Shown here one piece after another: positions 7,853 to 50,797 of a stretch of 54,689 bases of DNA (the stretch's first letter is position 1; every line of letters begins with the position of its first letter). The DNA lies in contig VGFU01000008.1 of assembly GCA_016868755.1 (NCBI GenBank), forward strand, positions 1 to 54,689, written 5' to 3'. The translations under genes and the position numbers were made by a program. The notes beneath the pieces are model-generated. The model saw only the letters and a program-made list of their open reading frames with translations. It searched no databases and was not told the origin of the DNA. The DNA comes from Bacteroidota bacterium (lineage in GTDB: Bacteria > Bacteroidota > Bacteroidia > Flavobacteriales > Schleiferiaceae).

Positions 7853-7915
7853 AGCTAGCAACCAGCAGCTAGCAACCAGCAGCCAGCAACCAGCAGCCAG
7901 CAACCAGCAGCACGA
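7853..7915. repeat. Heptanucleotide tandem array (intergenic), about nine units
   Basis: Units of seven bases alternate between AACCAGC and AGCTAGC or AGCCAGC, giving a 14-bp higher-order repeat, with no indel across eight units (7853-7908) and a degenerate ninth. It lies between the dCMP deaminase gene and the terminator of the small lipoprotein gene and codes for nothing recognisable. It has the same heptamer consensus as the arrays inside the genes at 24412-25137 and 37656-38351. Confidence 0.92.
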
Positions 7916-22610: not shown

Positions 22611-23716
22611 GCTTCGTTGCGGCGCTGGGTTTGGTAAATCGCGGCCTGGTGCTGAACCGAGTAGCGGTGCACCAGTTCAAAAAAGGCTTTGACGTACTTC
22701 GGATCGAGGCCCTGAGCCTGCGCTTGGGCTTCGCGCTGTTCAAGCATGTCGATCCAGCGGTCCATTTGAAAAACGCTGGCTCCCTGCTCGAGCTTTCGGT
22801 GGGCCAGGCGTTCTACGATGGCTTGGCGCTGCTGAATCAGCTCCACAAACTGGGCGTCGATTTGGTCGAGCGCCTCGCGGTCGGAACTCAAGCTTTGTGC
22901 AAGGGCGGCCGGATCAGACAGCTCGAGGTAGCGCGCCAGACGGTCGAGCAAGGCCGAAAGGCGAGCCGGGGTTAGCTGCTGGGCGGCGTCGCTTAGCGCT
23001 TCGTCGGGCTGCGGATGGATTTCGATCATAAGTCCATCGAGCGCGAGGTCCATCGCAATTTGGGCGACCGATTCGACCAAGTCGCGCTGCCCGGCAATGT
23101 GGCTGGGATCGCAAAAAATGGGGAGTTCCGGGGCCAGTCGGCGCAGTTCAAAACTGAGCTCCCAGCGCGGGTCGTTGCGGTAGGGCTCGGGGTGGGTGGC
23201 AAAAAATCCGCGGTGAACGGCTGCCAAGTCACTCATTCCGAGCTTGTCGAGGCGTTCGAGGGCCCCTAGCCACAGGCCCACGTCGGCGTGAATGGGGTTT
23301 TTAACCAGCACCGGCAGCGCGGACCCCTTGAGGGCTTCGGCAATCTCTTGCACATAAAACGGATTCACCGTGGTGCGCGCGCCGATCCACACGGCGTCGG
23401 CCCCGGCGGCGAGGGCTCGCTCGACGTGCTGGGGATTGCCCACCTCAACGACAAACGGAAGCCCCACTTCGGCCCGCATAATCTGGAGCCACTCGAGGGC
23501 ATTGTAGCCTGCGCCCTCAAACGCGCCCGGGCGGGTGCGTGGCTTCCACACTCCAGCCCGAAACAGCTGCGTGCGTCCGTCGGCCTTGAGGGCCCGCGCG
23601 GTTTCGAGCACCTGATCCAGCGATTCAGCGGAGCAGGGCCCCGCAATAACCCAGGGTTCCCCAGAATTAGGACTCCAGGGGCCAAAGGGCCGGTGGCGTC
23701 GGGCGGCAGCACTCAT
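22607..23716 (-). CDS. Bifunctional DAHP synthase / chorismate mutase
   Basis: The 369-residue protein joins two enzymes of aromatic amino-acid synthesis. Residues about 15-270 are a KDO8P-type DAHP synthase (VIAGPCSAES, FRAGVWKPRT, EVGNPQHVERAL, IGARTT, KNPIHAD, CDPSHIAGQRDL), condensing PEP with erythrose-4-phosphate. Residues about 280-369 are an AroQ-class chorismate mutase helix bundle (SDREALDQIDAQFVELIQQRQAIVERLAHRKL), which commits chorismate to Phe/Tyr and may give feedback control. This fusion order is common in Bacteroidota. The gene overlaps rsmI and recJ by four bases each. Confidence 0.95.
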   Translation of the reverse strand: MSAAARRHRPFGPWSPNSGEPWVIAGPCSAESLDQVLETARALKADGRTQLFRAGVWKPRTRPGAFEGAGYNALEWLQIMRAEVGLPFVVEVGNPQHVERALAAGADAVWIGARTTVNPFYVQEIAEALKGSALPVLVKNPIHADVGLWLGALERLDKLGMSDLAAVHRGFFATHPEPYRNDPRWELSFELRRLAPELPIFCDPSHIAGQRDLVESVAQIAMDLALDGLMIEIHPQPDEALSDAAQQLTPARLSALLDRLARYLELSDPAALAQSLSSDREALDQIDAQFVELIQQRQAIVERLAHRKLEQGASVFQMDRWIDMLEQREAQAQAQGLDPKYVKAFFELVHRYSVQHQAAIYQTQRRNEA

Positions 23717-24411
23717 TCGTCGTTCTTTTTAGCGGAGCTCGGCGCTCCTTCTAGAACAACCACGAGCTCGCCCCGCGGTTCAACCTCCGCAAAATAAGCT
23801 TGCAGCTCTGCGGCCGTCCCCCGGTGGTAGGTCTCGTGAAGCTTGCTGAGCTCGCGCACTACGCACATTTTGCGGTCCGGCCCAAGCCATTCGACAACCT
23901 CGTCGAGCAGCTTGCGCAGACGGTGCGGCGACTCATAGGCCACTAGGGTTCGGGCTTCGGTCCGCCAGCTTTGGATGCGCGTTTGGCGGCCTTTCTTTTG
24001 CGGAACAAACCCCTCAAACACAAAGCGGTCGCAGGGAAATCCGCTCGCCACCAGCGCAGGGATGAGCGCCGTGGGACCGGGAAGCGCCTCGACGGCGATG
24101 CCGGCCTCAATGCAGGCGCGGACCAGCAAAAACCCGGGGTCGCTAATGCCCGGAGTTCCTGCGTCGCTTGCGAGCGCCACGTGGCCGGAGCTTTCGGCGA
24201 TAAGGCGCACAAGCCCGGCCGCTTGGGCGTGCTCGTTGTGCATGTGGTAGGGGCGAAGCTTGGCCTCTAAACCTAACAGGGTCAGAAGCTTACCGGTCGT
24301 TCGGGTGTCTTCGGCCAGCACGACGTCGGCCTCCACCAGCGCGGATTTGGCGCGGTCGGTGATGTCTCCGAGGTTACCCAGCGGAGTCGGCACAAGCACC
24401 AGTTTGCCCAT
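23713..24411 (-). CDS. rsmI: 16S rRNA (cytidine-1402-2'-O)-methyltransferase
   Basis: The 232-residue SAM enzyme 2'-O-methylates C1402 in the ribosomal decoding site. It shows the tetrapyrrole-methylase fold pattern of RsmI: LVLVPTPLGNLGDIT at the start, VLAEDTRTTGKLL, ASDAGTPGISDPGFLLV and GPTALIPALVASGFPCDRFVFEGFVPQKKG. Length is slightly below the usual 270-290 residues; the family's C-terminal extension seems shortened. Its ATG directly abuts the stop codon of the 241-residue unknown gene upstream, and its end overlaps the DAHP synthase gene by four bases. Confidence 0.94.
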   Translation of the reverse strand: MGKLVLVPTPLGNLGDITDRAKSALVEADVVLAEDTRTTGKLLTLLGLEAKLRPYHMHNEHAQAAGLVRLIAESSGHVALASDAGTPGISDPGFLLVRACIEAGIAVEALPGPTALIPALVASGFPCDRFVFEGFVPQKKGRQTRIQSWRTEARTLVAYESPHRLRKLLDEVVEWLGPDRKMCVVRELSKLHETYHRGTAAELQAYFAEVEPRGELVVVLEGAPSSAKKNDE

Positions 24412-25137
24412 CTACTCGAAGCGGGCGTAAACCAGCGCCATAAATCGGTCGGCTACGTCGGGCGTTTTGCTCCAATCGTAGTCGGGTTGCACAGCTTCGC
24501 GAATGAAGGTTTCGCACTCGGCCTTAGACTCTAAGGTCGCCAGGTAGGCCACGATGCGCTGGTAATCGTGGTCGTCTCCGCCAAAAAGGTGCTTCACAAA
24601 CGCAAGGCGATCGTTCAAACCAGCGTTCAGGTTGGCGTAGCGCGCATTGACCGACTTGGCCGCTGCGGGTTGCTGGTTGCTAGTTGCTGGTTGCTCGTTG
24701 CTGGCTGCGGGTTGCTCGCTGCTGGTTGCTGGTTGCTCGCTGCTTGCTGCTGGTTGCTCGCTGCTGGTTGCTAGCTGCTCGCTGCTGGTTGCTGATTGCT
24801 GGCTGCTGCTTGCTGGTTGCTCGCTCAGGGTGGCTAGGTGGTCGGTTAGCGCGGCGTCGAGGCGCGACTCGGCTGCGGCCTGTAGGGCGGCGAGCTGGGC
24901 TTGGAGTTGGGCTTGAGCGGCGGCTTGGGCTGCGGCTTGAGCTTGTGCGAGCTCGGCCTGGGTGGCGGCAAATTGGGCTTCGGCCTGAGCCTTAGCAGCG
25001 GCTACTTCGGCGCGGAATTTCGCTTGATGCGCCTGCACCAAGAGCGATTCGAGGAGTTGGAGGTCGGCCGCGTTGGGCACCTCAGAATGAAGGGCAGATT
25101 GGAGGCCAGAAAGGGCCGAAGAGAGGGCGGTGCTCAT
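24412..25137 (-). CDS. Bacteroidota-type conserved protein with heptad-repeat linker
   Basis: The 241-residue protein has three parts. Residues 1-103 form an Ala/Gln/Leu-rich helical region likely to be a coiled coil (AQAEAQFAATQAELAQAQ). Residues about 104-159 are eight copies of a seven-residue repeat (consensus S-N/E-Q-Q-P-A-T) encoded by the heptanucleotide array 24661-24828. Residues about 170-241 form a compact domain (LNDRLAFVKHLFGGDDHDYQRIVAYL ... PDYDW ... VADRFMALVYARFE) that I associate with a conserved unnamed protein of Bacteroidota. An upstream extension to 25599 is antisense to tdk and is rejected. It heads the rsmI operon, abutting rsmI. Confidence 0.8.
   Translation of the reverse strand: MSTALSSALSGLQSALHSEVPNAADLQLLESLLVQAHQAKFRAEVAAAKAQAEAQFAATQAELAQAQAAAQAAAQAQLQAQLAALQAAAESRLDAALTDHLATLSEQPASSSQQSATSSEQLATSSEQPAASSEQPATSSEQPAASNEQPATSNQQPAAAKSVNARYANLNAGLNDRLAFVKHLFGGDDHDYQRIVAYLATLESKAECETFIREAVQPDYDWSKTPDVADRFMALVYARFE
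24661..24828. repeat. Heptanucleotide tandem array inside a coding region, 24 units
   Basis: Twenty-four consecutive 7-bp units (plus-strand consensus GGTTGCT; variants CGCTGCT, AGTTGCT, GGCTGCT) run without a single indel. Substitutions fall mainly at units' first and third positions. The gene reads it on the minus strand as AGCAACC, giving eight heptapeptides. The first and last units are degenerate. Confidence 0.95.
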
Positions 25138-25177
25138 GGTGGAAAGCCGTAGTTTAGCAGAAGTGGAAAAGTACGAA

Positions 25178-25750
25178 ATGTTCCAAGAGCGAGCGCCCCG
25201 TTCCGGGCATATTGAGGTGATTGCGGGCTCCATGTTTTCGGGTAAGACCGAGGAGCTCATTCGCCGCCTCAAGCGTGCGCAAATCGCACAACTTAAGGTG
25301 ATGGTTTTCAAACCACTAACCGATAACCGATACGCCGACACCGCGGTGGTCACGCACGATGAAGGGCGCATGGATGCCCGGCCAGTGGTTTCGTCGCGCG
25401 AAATTTTAGATGCCGCAAGCGGTTCAGAAGTGGTTGGATTAGACGAAGCGCAGTTCTTTGATGCCGAAATCGTGCACGTAGCCAATGCGCTTGCAGATAG
25501 CGGTAAGCGCGTGATTGTCGCCGGCCTCGACATGGATTTTAATGGAGTCCCCTTCGGACCCATGCCCCAACTCATGGCGGTAGCTGAGTATGTCACCAAG
25601 GTGCACGCAATCTGCGTGCGGAGCGGAGAACTTGCGCACTATTCGCACCGGCTGACGCCCGATTCGACCCAGGTGATGCTGGGCGACCGGCGCACCTATG
25701 AACCGCTATCGCGCGCTGAGTTTGTGCGCGAACGCAACCAAAATACCTAA
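25178..25750 (+). CDS. tdk: Thymidine kinase (type II)
   Basis: The 190-residue enzyme phosphorylates thymidine in the salvage pathway. The P-loop GSMFSGKT is at residues 17-24, the DEAQFF Walker B-like motif near 94, and the lasso-region substrate loop (YVTKVHAIC) follows. Of the four zinc cysteines usual in type II kinases only the first (HAIC) is present; the others are Ser/Gly and His/Arg positions. The frame opens at 25130, but MFQERAPRSGHIEVIAGS matches the family's start, so ATG 25178 is chosen. It diverges from the 241-residue unknown gene and ends two bases before murF-alr. Confidence 0.94.
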   Translation: MFQERAPRSGHIEVIAGSMFSGKTEELIRRLKRAQIAQLKVMVFKPLTDNRYADTAVVTHDEGRMDARPVVSSREILDAASGSEVVGLDEAQFFDAEIVHVANALADSGKRVIVAGLDMDFNGVPFGPMPQLMAVAEYVTKVHAICVRSGELAHYSHRLTPDSTQVMLGDRRTYEPLSRAEFVRERNQNT

Positions 25751-37134: not shown

Positions 37135-37659
37135 GTGGAAGCATGGTACGCACACATTCACGGCGCTCTAAACGGCCGCCTGGATGCGCAGCGCGCACTC
37201 TATGAGGCGCTCGCGCCGAGGGTACTGCATACCTGCAAACGCTACTTCGTCGACGAAGCCGATGCTGAAGACGCTATGATACGCACGATGACCCAAATGT
37301 TCCACCAACTCGCGACGGTTCGAGAGCCCAAAGCCCTCCCGGCGTGGCTGCGCCGTACCGCCGTGAATGAGTGCCTGATGGAGCTGCGCCGCCGCAAGGC
37401 GGAATGGGTCGAACTCACCGATTTTCCCGAAACGGGTGCTTCGGCCACCGACGCACTGCACGACCGCGAGGCACTGTGGGCCCTGCTCCGCCAGCTGCCT
37501 GACGGGTACCGTACCGTCTTCAATATGTACGCACTCGAAGGCTACAGCCACGCCGATATCGCCGAACAGCTCGGGATTTCTGAGGCAACCAGCAAGTCCC
37601 AGTTGAGCCGCGCCCGCCAGTGGCTTCAGCGCCGTTTGGCTAACTTTAGTTTGCAATGA
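37135..37659 (+). CDS. ECF-type RNA polymerase sigma factor
   Basis: The 174-residue protein has region 2 (RALYEALAPRVLHTCKRYFVDEADAEDAMIRTMTQMF, about 18-55) and region 4 (LRQLPDGYRTVFNMYALEGYSHADIAEQLGISEATSKSQLSRARQWL, about 120-168), with the short linker typical of ECF sigma factors. It would direct RNA polymerase to envelope or stress promoters. The start is GTG 37135; no good alternative start is seen. It overlaps the next gene by four bases (ATGA), an arrangement usual for sigma/anti-sigma pairs. The 119 bp upstream hold an imperfect AACCTTTG at 37086-37093. Confidence 0.93.
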   Translation: MEAWYAHIHGALNGRLDAQRALYEALAPRVLHTCKRYFVDEADAEDAMIRTMTQMFHQLATVREPKALPAWLRRTAVNECLMELRRRKAEWVELTDFPETGASATDALHDREALWALLRQLPDGYRTVFNMYALEGYSHADIAEQLGISEATSKSQLSRARQWLQRRLANFSLQ

Positions 37660-38351
37660 GCCCGAAGGACCTCGATAAGCTGTTTCGCAATGCCCTCGGT
37701 GAAGGCCAAGCCACTCCGCGCCCTGAGGCATGGGCCCGAGTAGCTCATGGGTTGCCCCAAGTCCAGCGCAAGCGCCGCATCCTTTGGTGGCCCTACGCCG
37801 CGGCCGTATCAGTCGCCCTAGCCGCGGTCGGCACGTGGTGGATGACGCACTCGCGGCTAGAGGTCGCTCCAAGCCAGCAGCTCACAGCCAGCAACCAGCA
37901 GCTAGCCGCCAGCAACCGGCAACCAGCAACCAGCAACCAGCAGCTAGCCGCCAGCAACCGGCAACCAGCAACGAGTAACCAGTTGCCGCTAGCCGCGAGC
38001 AGCCACGGAAGTGCCGCCTTCGAGTTGGCCTTCTTGCCCCATATGGAGGCCGAATTGGGAGACGAGCGCGTTCCGTTGCTCGAGCGCCGAATAGCCCAGG
38101 CGGCGGTAGAAGCGGCTCCAGAATTTGCGCTGGCCCCCGAGGTTCCGCGCCGCAGGTATGCCCAATTAGCCGCAAGCGTGCAAAACGTTTGGGCGGCCGT
38201 TTCTGAATTCCGCGAGGCCGAAGTGCCCGTTGAAGTAACCGTTGAAGTGCACGTGCCAGCCGTGGTGCTTCAGCGCATTAATCAAACCCGAACGCTGGCA
38301 GAAAACCTCACGGAATCATGGTCAACTTTACCCTCAAGGCGGTCGCACTGA
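37656..38351 (+). CDS. Putative anti-sigma-like single-pass membrane protein with heptad repeat
   Basis: The 231-residue protein has a cytoplasmic N-terminus of about 40 residues (LDKLFRNALGEGQATPRPEAWARV, like the sigma-binding part of Bacteroidota anti-sigma proteins), one membrane helix (about 42-63, ILWWPYAAAVSVALAAVGTWW), then a periplasmic Ser/Asn/Gln/Pro/Ala repeat (residues about 73-112) encoded by the heptanucleotide array, then an unrecognised C-terminal part. Its four-base overlap with the sigma gene supports an anti-sigma role; no HCC zinc motif is present. It overlaps the outer-membrane protein gene by 34 bases. The role is inferred. Confidence 0.7.
   Translation: MSPKDLDKLFRNALGEGQATPRPEAWARVAHGLPQVQRKRRILWWPYAAAVSVALAAVGTWWMTHSRLEVAPSQQLTASNQQLAASNRQPATSNQQLAASNRQPATSNQLPLAASSHGSAAFELAFLPHMEAELGDERVPLLERRIAQAAVEAAPEFALAPEVPRRRYAQLAASVQNVWAAVSEFREAEVPVEVTVEVHVPAVVLQRINQTRTLAENLTESWSTLPSRRSH
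37872..37990. repeat. Heptanucleotide tandem array inside a coding region, 17 units
   Basis: Seventeen 7-bp units (AACCAGC, AGCTAGC, CGCCAGC, AACCGGC types) run in register, becoming degenerate toward 37990. A 43-bp stretch at 37888-37930 recurs exactly 42 bp later (37930-37972), a recent tandem duplication of six units that adds 14 codons and keeps the frame. In the protein it appears as a doubled 14-residue block. Confidence 0.93.
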
Positions 38352-39409
38352 CGGCCATTTTAGCATCGGCTGCGCCGCAACTTCGCGCCCAAGATGCCCC
38401 GCCGGCAATGCCTCAAGCTCCGGCTATGCCGCAAGCTCCGGCCGAGGCGCAATCCTCCGACAGCACGCAGTCCCGCGCCGCGCGCATGAGCGCCGAAATC
38501 GCTGCGGCCATTAGCGAGTACACCAAAGAAATGGCGGCGCTCGAAAAACAGATCCGCGACAAAGACATCACCAAAGAAGACGCGGAACGCCGCCGCAAAG
38601 AGCTTAACGACCGACTCGAAGAGCGTCTTGAGGCCATTGAAAGCATGGCCGAAGCCTGGGCCGACAACCTCGAGGAGTCGATCGAAACCCTCGAGCTGAA
38701 CTTGGGAGAAAACTTGAAGTTGAACATTGAGCCCGCGAAACCCAAGCGAAAAAAGTTCAAGAAGAAGCTAGATGGAATGGTCCTACTGGTCGGCTCAAAT
38801 ACGCTTTTGAATGTCCCGACAACGGACATAGCCTCAGCCGATCTGTATTCAGGGGATTGGAATTCGAGCAATCGGTCTTCGACGTTTGGGATATACTTCA
38901 CGAACCAACGTCGCTTAGGCCGCACGCCGTTGTGGGCTAAAAGCGGTTGGGGATTCACGGGATATACCTACGATTTTGGGCAAAAAATGCTCGCGGTTCC
39001 GCCGATGAACGGGGGTATTGCGTTGATTAGTCCGGCAAATTCGGTTGAGCTGCGTCGATCGAACTTGACCATGTCGTACTTCGAAGTCCCTTTGTCGCTG
39101 GTAATCAATCCGTCACGCCGTGGAAAAGGTTTGAGCTTTTCTGCTGGAGGCTTTACTGGAATTCGACTTGGAGGTACTCGCCAAATGGTATACCGGTCAG
39201 AGGGTATGGGTAGAGTAACCGAGACGACCAACGGGAATTTCTACGGGAGCCTGTTCAGCTACGGGCTTCAGGCCGAACTCGGCTTCCGTCGTTTCACCCT
39301 GGGGGTCCGTCAGAACTTTAACGAGCCTTTTGTAGTGCCCGCGACATGGTCCAGCACTCCTCCTCAGTTTTACAACGCCTCGGTGTTCGCCACCGTGCGC
39401 CTCTTTTAG
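38318..39409 (+). CDS. Secreted protein with coiled coil and C-terminal beta-barrel domain
   Basis: The 363-residue protein has a signal peptide (about 1-25, ending LRAQ), a Pro/Ala/Gln-rich stretch (PPAMPQAPAMPQAPAEAQ), a highly charged coiled coil (about 55-150, KDITKEDAERRRKELNDRLEERLEAIE), a Lys-rich joint (KPKRKKFKKK) and a C-terminal domain of about 210 residues with alternating aromatic and Gly strands that ends VFATVRLF like an outer-membrane barrel. The base composition drops in G+C from about 38760 on, where the barrel begins. It overlaps the anti-sigma-like gene by 34 bases, and may be a target or part of the sigma cassette. Function unknown. Confidence 0.75.
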   Translation: MVNFTLKAVALTAILASAAPQLRAQDAPPAMPQAPAMPQAPAEAQSSDSTQSRAARMSAEIAAAISEYTKEMAALEKQIRDKDITKEDAERRRKELNDRLEERLEAIESMAEAWADNLEESIETLELNLGENLKLNIEPAKPKRKKFKKKLDGMVLLVGSNTLLNVPTTDIASADLYSGDWNSSNRSSTFGIYFTNQRRLGRTPLWAKSGWGFTGYTYDFGQKMLAVPPMNGGIALISPANSVELRRSNLTMSYFEVPLSLVINPSRRGKGLSFSAGGFTGIRLGGTRQMVYRSEGMGRVTETTNGNFYGSLFSYGLQAELGFRRFTLGVRQNFNEPFVVPATWSSTPPQFYNASVFATVRLF

Positions 39410-46152: not shown

Positions 46153-47451
46153 ATGCGCTACGAACCCCTTAAATCGGACCTTTACGCCCGCCACCGGGCC
46201 CGCTTCACGGCTACGCTCAAGCCGAATTCTGTCGCCTTTTTTAATTCGAGCGACATTTACCCCACGTCGGCCGACGGCAGCGTTCCGTTCAAGCAGGCCA
46301 CCGACATTCTGTGGCTGAGCGGAATTGACCAAGAGGAGTCCGTTCTCGTGCTCTTTCCCGACGCCCCCAAGCCCGAGCAGCGCGAGATGCTGTTTTTGGT
46401 CGAAACCAACGACCTCATCGCCCGCTGGGAGGGCGCCAAGCTGTCCAAAGATGAGGCCCGCGCCGCGAGCGGAATCCAAAGCATTCACTGGCTCAGCGAC
46501 TTCGATCGCATTCTGCGCGACGTCATGGCGCACGCCCATCACGTGTACCTGCTGGGCCACGAGCACATTCGCCGAAACAACCCCGTTGAGACGCGTGAAG
46601 ACCGCTTCGGGGCCGACCTGCGCCGTCGCTTCCCGAACCACGCGTACGAACGTTCAGCTCCCGCAATGAACGTTTTGCGCGCCGTTAAAGACCCCGAAGA
46701 GGTCGCTATAATGCAGGTGGCCGCCGACATCACGGCTGCCGGCTACGACCGGGTGATGCGCTTTTTGAAGCCCGGAGTATGGGAGTACGAGCTCGAGGCT
46801 GAGTTCCTTCACGAGTTTGTGCGCCGCCGCTCCCACGGTTTTGCCTACACGCCCATCATCGGGTCGGGGGCGAACGCGTGCGTGCTCCACTACATCACTA
46901 ACGACGCTCAGGTGCACGAGGGCGACGTGGTGCTCTTTGACGTCGGAGCCGTTTACGGCAACTACGCCTGCGACGTGACGCGCTGTTTTCCGGCGAACGG
47001 ACGCTTCACGCCCCGCCAGCGCCAGGTTTATGAGGCGGTGCTCCGCGTCGAAAAGGCCGCGATGAACCTCTTGAAGCCGGGCGTGCGCCTGCCCGACTAC
47101 CACGTTCAGGTGGGCGAATTGATGACTGAGGAGCTGATTGGCCTCGGACTCATTACCCGCGACGACGTCGCCAAGCAGGATCCCGCGTGGCCCGCCTACA
47201 AAAAGTACTTTATGCACGGAACCTCGCACTACCTCGGCCTCGACGTGCACGACTACGGTCCCTGGGACGGTTCTGAAATTCGCGAAGGCATAGTGTTCAC
47301 GGTGGAGCCCGGAATCTACATTCCCGAGGAGGGTCTCGGAATCCGCATCGAAGACGACATCGTGGTGACTAAGGGTGAGCCGATTAACCTCACGAAGGCG
47401 ATCCCCAAGGAGGTCGACGAGATTGAGCGCATCATGGCTGGTCGTAACTAG
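46153..47451 (+). CDS. Xaa-Pro aminopeptidase (aminopeptidase P, M24B)
   Basis: The 432-residue metallopeptidase removes N-terminal residues before proline. Residues 1 to about 170 form the N-terminal creatinase-like domain. The catalytic pita-bread domain has the five metal ligands in order: Asp in LFDVGAVYGNYACDVTRCFP (two Asp), His in MHGTSHYLGLDVHD, Glu in VFTVEPGIYIPEEGLG and Glu in IRIEDDIVV. The ATG at 46153 is the natural start. Its last codons and stop already follow the heptamer pattern of the repeat after it. It is divergent from sdhC. Confidence 0.94.
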   Translation: MRYEPLKSDLYARHRARFTATLKPNSVAFFNSSDIYPTSADGSVPFKQATDILWLSGIDQEESVLVLFPDAPKPEQREMLFLVETNDLIARWEGAKLSKDEARAASGIQSIHWLSDFDRILRDVMAHAHHVYLLGHEHIRRNNPVETREDRFGADLRRRFPNHAYERSAPAMNVLRAVKDPEEVAIMQVAADITAAGYDRVMRFLKPGVWEYELEAEFLHEFVRRRSHGFAYTPIIGSGANACVLHYITNDAQVHEGDVVLFDVGAVYGNYACDVTRCFPANGRFTPRQRQVYEAVLRVEKAAMNLLKPGVRLPDYHVQVGELMTEELIGLGLITRDDVAKQDPAWPAYKKYFMHGTSHYLGLDVHDYGPWDGSEIREGIVFTVEPGIYIPEEGLGIRIEDDIVVTKGEPINLTKAIPKEVDEIERIMAGRN

Positions 47452-50741: not shown

Positions 50742-50797
50742 GGTTTCTGACCGCTGGTTTCTGGCCGCTGGTTTCGAGTAACTAGTGGCTAGCAACG
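50742..50797 (+). repeat. Decayed heptamer array after the ALDH stop codon, eight units
   Basis: Directly after TAA the units GGTTTCT, GACCGCT, GGTTTCT, GGCCGCT, GGTTTCG, AGTAACT, AGTGGCT and AGCAACG run in register. The sequence then becomes AACGAG/GGGCTAGC-like and loses the phase. Confidence 0.7.

Follow-up and report, generated by a model that had tools for sequence, protein, structure and literature searches.

As regards a 7-bp unit lying within a coding region, one of the closest described systems is the neuO VNTR of E. coli K1 (CUS-3 prophage), whose AAGACTC units encode RLKTQDS heptads, three units making one heptapeptide, and which yields the full-length protein only when the number of units is a multiple of three (PMC3046976). 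TAACTGA heptamers of marine Beggiatoaceae, Cyanobacteria and some Bacteroidetes are dispersed direct repeats, mostly intergenic and, in the BOGUAY genome, mostly found just upstream of start codons; in MacGregor 2015 their placement is argued to be controlled by translation and stops, in-gene copies succeeding mainly at protein peripheries or between modules (PMC4679880). The Xanthomonas/Nostoc heptamers GGGAATC and GGGGA(C/T)T are G4-forming dispersed SSRs that are under-represented between divergent genes and in coding regions, and the available sections of that paper describe no colonisation of linkers (PMC4692102). Two further papers deal with bacterial satellite families derived from heptamers (PMC6749651) and with a 25-residue amphipathic motif, a repeated coding sequence present across many proteins and taxa and often in membrane-targeted proteins, which is a system unlike a 7-bp linker repeat (PMC2996958).

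The repeat considered here, GGTTGCT on one strand and AGCAACC on the other, forms a tandem array within a gene of the window, i.e. the whole stretch of 54,689 nucleotides that was analysed, and belongs to an already known kind, here met in a setting that is unusually informative. The heptanucleotide STRRs of cyanobacteria are dispersed heptamer SSRs, and the present repeat is like them in that its tandem 7-bp units occur at many loci, mostly intergenic and seldom between divergent genes, and vary in length by unit steps between relatives at one intergenic site. Rickettsia palindromic elements (RPEs) are repeated DNA found in frame in many unrelated proteins as well as between genes; they are palindromic mobile units, whereas the arrays described below point to tandem unit growth and have no common flanks. 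Unlike neuO, a single and near-perfect 5'-end locus with documented switching, GGTTGCT fills internal linkers of several housekeeping genes (LeuRS, MutS, ABC transporter and E2 among them) and many intergenic sites; its array in the window is internal and has ten exact units out of 22, and one out-of-frame allele was seen, in the ABC gene of genome G011. Unlike TAACTGA, which carries forward-strand stops in all frames and in the BOGUAY genome sits mostly upstream of start codons, GGTTGCT has a consensus without stops on either strand; it is found within conserved enzymes, in their internal linkers, and is often situated at 3' ends. Colonisation of linkers also sets it apart from the Xanthomonas/Nostoc heptamers. 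A literature search that covered few subscription papers returned no account of one heptamer filling the linkers of several conserved enzymes, and a search for the literal repeat gave no relevant title among the matches listed. The explanation that we consider probable is that short seeds grow locally into arrays, subject to filtering by reading frame, orientation and linker tolerance.

An imperfect heptanucleotide array in a conserved protein

The features of the window that bear on the repeat are collected in Table 1. A sequence-only reading of this stretch had proposed 24 uninterrupted units at 24661-24828 that make an eight-fold heptapeptide. The array is there, but its outer two "units" (CGCTGCG, CGCTCAG) fail to qualify, and the remaining 22 encode about 7.3 heptapeptides. 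The same reading was right in that all variants are substitutions: the units stay in register without indels, most changes falling at unit positions 1 and 3. Its match score of 108 is far above chance level, the window after dinucleotide shuffling (40 times) giving 8-13. Its placement was confirmed as well: it is in frame on the AGCAACC strand, preceded by a long helix predicted for residues 23-105 and followed by the conserved C-terminal domain, in a gene that lies immediately upstream of the PF00590 gene that we take to be rsmI.

Table 1. Repeat arrays, host genes and neighbouring genes in the window
Feature	Position	Strand	Remarks
Heptanucleotide array GGTTGCT	24668..24821	+	22 in-register units; best longer period 21 bp
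CDS, 241 aa	24412..25137	-	N-terminal long helix, array-encoded linker, conserved C-terminal domain
Conserved C-terminal domain	24415..24660	-	Found in 21/22 genomes of the genus
Predicted N-terminal helical part	24823..25134	-	Helices at residues 2-19 and 23-105; ends at array start
Downstream neighbour, rsmI-like	23713..24411	-	PF00590 tetrapyrrole methylase
Divergent neighbour, thymidine kinase	25130..25750	+	PF00265
Anti-sigma-like protein gene	37656..38351	+	Label from position behind ECF sigma gene and hydrophobic segment, by eye
Second in-gene array	37874..37982	-	13 units at 37890-37980; 42-bp longer period; coding strand AGCAACC
Intergenic array between convergent genes	7857..7909	-	14-bp longer period
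Short degenerate repeat relative	50742..50775	+	Directly after called gene, between convergent genes

Structure prediction of the host protein with 19 orthologues (mean pLDDT 69.9, pTM 0.29) gave the long helix, then the array without structure at pLDDT under 50, and four helices from residue 163 onward. A Pfam search of this protein returned no family and an NCBIfam search weak matches alone, far under cut-off. We note that its orthologue in G002 (C40, L084) lacks 30 residues of the C-terminal domain at the array edge, in frame; of the 21 orthologues found, all but this one cover the region.

It had further been argued that the unit reads alike in all three frames and is free of stops in all six, and that this design may explain how one repeat lives both between and inside genes. 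The first statement holds for the pure unit but is generic to 7-mers, following from the fact that 7 is not a multiple of 3. The second is true of the consensus and fails for the actual array, which has five stops over four of the six frames (0, 1 and 2 on the plus strand; 1, 1 and 0 on the minus strand). Since 64% of random heptamers of the same base composition are likewise stop-free in six frames, stop-freedom is not a special design. Such a design would also admit both strands, yet the 18 classed in-gene arrays of at least 23 bp share one orientation, and it does not predict the linker location, the orientation or the 21-bp periodicity described below; it was rejected as the cause of the repeat's success. 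A DNA hairpin as driver of expansion was rejected as well, the folding of 118 nt of the window array as ssDNA not going beyond that of shuffles for either strand (z +0.97 / -0.77).

Arrays occupy interdomain linkers and loops of conserved proteins

Arrays in relatives were drawn from loci with an exact three-unit match and from a few orthologous regions, and are therefore a sample. The proteins that carry them are LeuRS, MutS, an MsbA-like ABC transporter, the lipoyl acyltransferase E2, the anti-sigma-like protein and the window protein. In the 2-oxoacid dehydrogenase E2 the array lies between the lipoyl (3-75) and E3-binding (136-173) domains, in the MsbA-like exporter between the transmembrane (38-305) and nucleotide-binding (382-531) domains; in MutS it separates domain III from the ATPase domain V. 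Against solved chains, the LeuRS insert aligns to six residues (237-242) of 1h3n_A and the MutS insert to six residues (573-578) of 7ai5_A. LeuRS and MutS exceed their NCBIfam cut-offs; the ABC and E2 proteins fall under those of their best models, and "MsbA-like" and "E2" are therefore broad labels. For the anti-sigma-like protein, whose gene lies behind an ECF sigma factor gene at 37135-37659, neither Pfam nor NCBIfam gave a match. An 18-bp repeat was observed at 38402-38452 of the window, near the start of the next gene.

The spacing between the WIGRS and TRPDT motifs of LeuRS is 18-19 residues in 12 of 20 species, 21 in G008 and 36-103 in the other seven. By eye, this loop is filled in G001 and G011 (L136, L131) by the octamer AACGAGCC and a 9-mer instead of the heptamer, from which we conclude that it is permissive to more than one repeat; the inserts of G000 and G002 mix the heptamer with other repeats and inverted units. 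Permissiveness of the loop may thus matter more than the heptamer itself. A related repeat was also found downstream of the thiolase gene of G001 (L460). In MutS the array is present in five of the five array-rich genomes in which this part of the protein was recovered (G001, G002, G005, G011 and, weakly, G000).

Orientation of in-gene arrays and origin of the linker repeat

Caller-defined CDS arrays of G000 and its relatives (n=18) comprise 16 that read AGCAACC, all of at least 23 bp, and two that read GGTTGCT. The latter, 18 and 20 bp long, lie at signal-peptide-like starts and are counter-examples to the strand rule below 23 bp. With two anti-sigma arrays included, the classed in-gene arrays of at least 23 bp read AGCAACC (SNQQPAT) in 18 of 18 cases; these represent seven families, that of G020 C68 being without a name. 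Arrays between tandem genes are divided 13:6 (18:0 vs 13:6, Fisher p=0.020). In the LeuRS inserts there are also shorter units in the inverted orientation. The two short GGTTGCT stretches (G000 C3 86820-86837 and 87140-87159; L109) belong to adjacent genes whose signal-peptide-like starts contain WLLVAG and WLQVAG, which resemble what the repeat encodes on its other strand, over matches of 18-20 bp. Outside the genus, the strand bias among the matches listed (120 loci in other bacteria) was 31 vs 19 with the loosest filter and 8 vs 3 with the strictest, which is not convincing, and we therefore claim the strand rule for this genus alone.

Two properties distinguish the strands. The SNQQPAT reading has a mean Kyte-Doolittle value of -1.69, compared with +2.11 for GCWLLVA on the other strand, and, as RNA, 12 pure units of AGCAACC fold at -6.0 kcal/mol compared with -34.5 kcal/mol for GGUUGCU; for 118 nt of the window array the values are -21.5 (z -1.47) and -51.9 (z -3.61), respectively. 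It is possible, if rather doubtful, that the bias arises from mRNA structure and not from the peptide, GGUUGCU self-folding strongly and AGCAACC not. The less structured strand is the coding one in 14 of 14 repeat-bearing ABC, E2 and MutS linkers, but in three of four LeuRS inserts the coding strand is the more structured, and hydropathy and RNA structure are confounded as causes of orientation. An effect of mRNA structure is in any case compatible with local growth and filtering.

The hydrophilic reading of all 18 classed in-gene arrays of at least 23 bp and the placement of arrays in linkers also speak for selection of SNQQPAT as a functional flexible linker, the DNA repeat being a by-product of codon choice. 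We regard this as very unlikely, since the same DNA repeat is also found between genes and since the codons themselves argue otherwise. When the linker peptide of the window protein was recoded 500 times with the codon usage of the genome, the mean score was 21.5 and the maximum 49.5, against the 108 observed; the repeat employs CCA for proline and GCA for alanine, in each case the scarcest codon of the genome. Peptide-level convergence is weakened by this test. The heptamer is present in the orthologous linkers of the close relatives G002, G011 and G020 and degraded in that of G018, while linkers outside this close clade are unrelated in sequence; none of the 21 orthologues, all sought within the genus, encodes the same peptide with unrelated codons. 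The linker repeat is thus of DNA-level rather than peptide-level origin, as had been supposed, and on the same evidence (codon test and clade-restricted linkers) the DNA repeat came first, in one clade.

Distribution of arrays in the genome

A first census gave 17 repeat segments; it covered 432,559 bp, made up of the window contig and the three largest contigs, the third of these up to 100 kb. The portion finally examined, 798,540 bp or 49% of the genome, was partly chosen for pattern matches and contains 25 arrays at score 15, of which seven lie between convergent genes, 12 between tandem genes, one between divergent genes and five in CDS; the repeat does occur both between and inside genes, as the sequence-only reading had stated, and the scan for tandem 7-mers in this genome and its sisters revealed arrays at many loci and in several relatives. 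Genes were called with a simple caller of our own that requires an open frame running through an array for it to count as coding, so that out-of-frame alleles would be classed as non-coding. The caller overlooked the 231-aa anti-sigma-like ORF, so that the array within it (37874-37982) was counted as "tandem"; this brings the intergenic arrays to 19 of 25.

These 19 (seven convergent, 11 tandem, one divergent) were compared with 345 gaps of at least 20 bp (47/203/95), array gaps themselves included: arrays are over-represented in convergent gaps (Fisher p=0.013) and under-represented in divergent ones (p=0.032). The stop-codon end of a called gene is overlapped or no more than 10 bp away in 12 of the 19 and the start end of a gene no more than 10 bp away in four. 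Intergenic copies may contain TAG and provide stop codons to flanking genes, and at C3:2562 it is the repeat itself that supplies them. One convergent array, at about 47073-47129 of G000 C6 (L121), is flanked on both sides by a G+C-rich stretch and a T run; these flanks resemble two terminators in inverted order.

The recurrence of one heptamer at many loci, its presence in frame inside unrelated conserved proteins (LeuRS, MutS, ABC, E2, anti-sigma-like and window protein) and the likeness of the in-gene insertions in essential proteins to RPEs are suggestive of a small mobile element, MITE- or RPE-like, that carries the repeat into and between genes; by eye, the LeuRS insert of G002 shows a larger unit, in which heptamers stand inverted, three times over. 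We nevertheless find such an element unlikely. Comparison of the flanks of the 25 arrays, 150 bp on each side, revealed none common to separate loci: five of 1225 flank pairs matched, each within the flanks of one array or of two neighbouring C5 arrays whose flanks overlap. An element with common flanks is therefore not supported. The LeuRS loop, moreover, holds differing repeat units in sister species, and the junction between the thiolase gene and the convergent E1 gene holds a short repeat stretch at the same place in the sisters G002 and G005, i.e. a seed rather than an empty site. Local growth from a seed fits this junction.

Step size, length variation and reading frame

Self-similarity of arrays of at least 56 bp peaks at 21 bp within genes and at 14 and 28 bp between genes (15 v 15 arrays, p=1e-4). 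The contrast holds when the E2 array of G020 is moved from intergenic to coding (16 v 14, p=1.4e-4); as orthologous arrays are not independent, the sample by family being five to seven, we also compared five family means (p=0.0025), that of the anti-sigma family being close to zero (0.002). Relative to shuffled unit order, a 21-bp excess at p<0.05 was seen in seven of 14 coding arrays and in none of ten intergenic ones.

The ABC linkers of five array-bearing species measure 38, 38, 31, 31 and 17 aa, i.e. steps of 7 residues, and that of G002, where the match is decayed, 30 residues. At the thiolase/E1 junction, the one intergenic site compared across species, the distances measured by hand from the last SN codons of thiolase to the fixed TGA of the convergent E1 end are 114, 23 and 16 bp in G000, G002 and G005; the differences of 91 and 7 bp are multiples of 7 and not of 21. 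Linker lengths in E2, MutS and the anti-sigma-like protein are not all 7-aa multiples apart, so other indels also occur.

The one coding site with a net 7-bp step is the ABC linker of G011, of 86 nt compared with 93 nt in its sister G020. With one unit less, the gene is out of frame and split into overlapping frames at the array, which bears out the expectation that the downstream frame depends on copy number. The loss of frame may reflect a switch, a mutation or an assembly error. We think it improbable that in-gene arrays are contingency loci in which gain and loss of units switch the frame (phase variation), like neuO: the ABC gene of G011 is a single case in a multi-contig assembly, the other readable array-bearing orthologues of the six families are in frame, the targets are housekeeping proteins, and imperfect arrays should slow slippage. 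An apparent frameshift in the E2 gene of G020 was dismissed, the break being a run of N; it is this array that was reclassed from intergenic, with little change in the result. All of the genomes are multi-contig assemblies in which copy numbers may be misassembled.

A model for the entry of the repeat into genes

Local growth with filtering probably proceeded as follows. The dispersed family NGYTGCT/AGCRACN became abundant in one clade of the genus. Starting from short seeds, its arrays would lengthen and shorten by 7 bp at a time, for the most part in intergenic DNA and frequently at the 3' ends of genes, presumably by replication slippage or unequal recombination; growth from seeds is probably the general rule. 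Within genes, three filters would operate. The net change would have to leave the frame intact, as three units do (21 bp, 7 residues); the coding strand would have to be AGCAACC, encoding the hydrophilic and weakly structured SNQQPAT, since the other strand encodes the hydrophobic GCWLLVA and is strongly structured as RNA; and only an interdomain linker or loop would be a suitable site. The repeat has in this manner probably overwritten the linkers of LeuRS, MutS, ABC, E2, anti-sigma-like and window proteins, linkers that are presumably tolerated rather than selected. A bolder proposition, to which we attach little credence, is that one heptamer acts as a continuing source of linkers, repeatedly overwriting the hinges of core enzymes, adjusting their length by 7 residues at a time and now and then turning a gene off through a single unit, as in the ABC gene of G011.

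The repeat amounts to a natural experiment on how non-coding DNA repeats turn into protein sequence: within one clade, intergenic 7-bp steps can be set against in-gene 21-bp self-similarity on one strand and in linkers, with array-free sisters for comparison, such that the entry of a repeat into coding sequence becomes a countable question. It is also a warning that mutation of a repeat, and not function, can be what shapes a linker of LeuRS, MutS or E2.

Spread within the genus and across phyla

Within the genus, the family NGYTGCT/AGCRACN is abundant in a single clade. Eight of the 22 genomes contain 198, 124, 97, 91, 88, 66, 40 and 31 loose three-unit matches; G007 contains nine (compared with 66 in G005) and each of the remaining 13 has 0-4, the reversed-unit control giving 0-11 per genome. 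The exact 21-mer is found in ten of 395 genomes drawn from the phylum, the window's own included, and its reversed control in one of 395; stretches that carry the 21-mer number at least 120 and come from many phyla. This recurrence of the heptamer at many loci and in many phyla is not accounted for by local growth.

The MutS proteins of G005 and G007 (L410, L411) are 96% identical, and the array is present in the loop of the former and absent from that of the latter. Given that G005 is array-rich and G007 repeat-poor, the bolder proposition above would add that the length of the MutS repeat could feed back on repeat stability.
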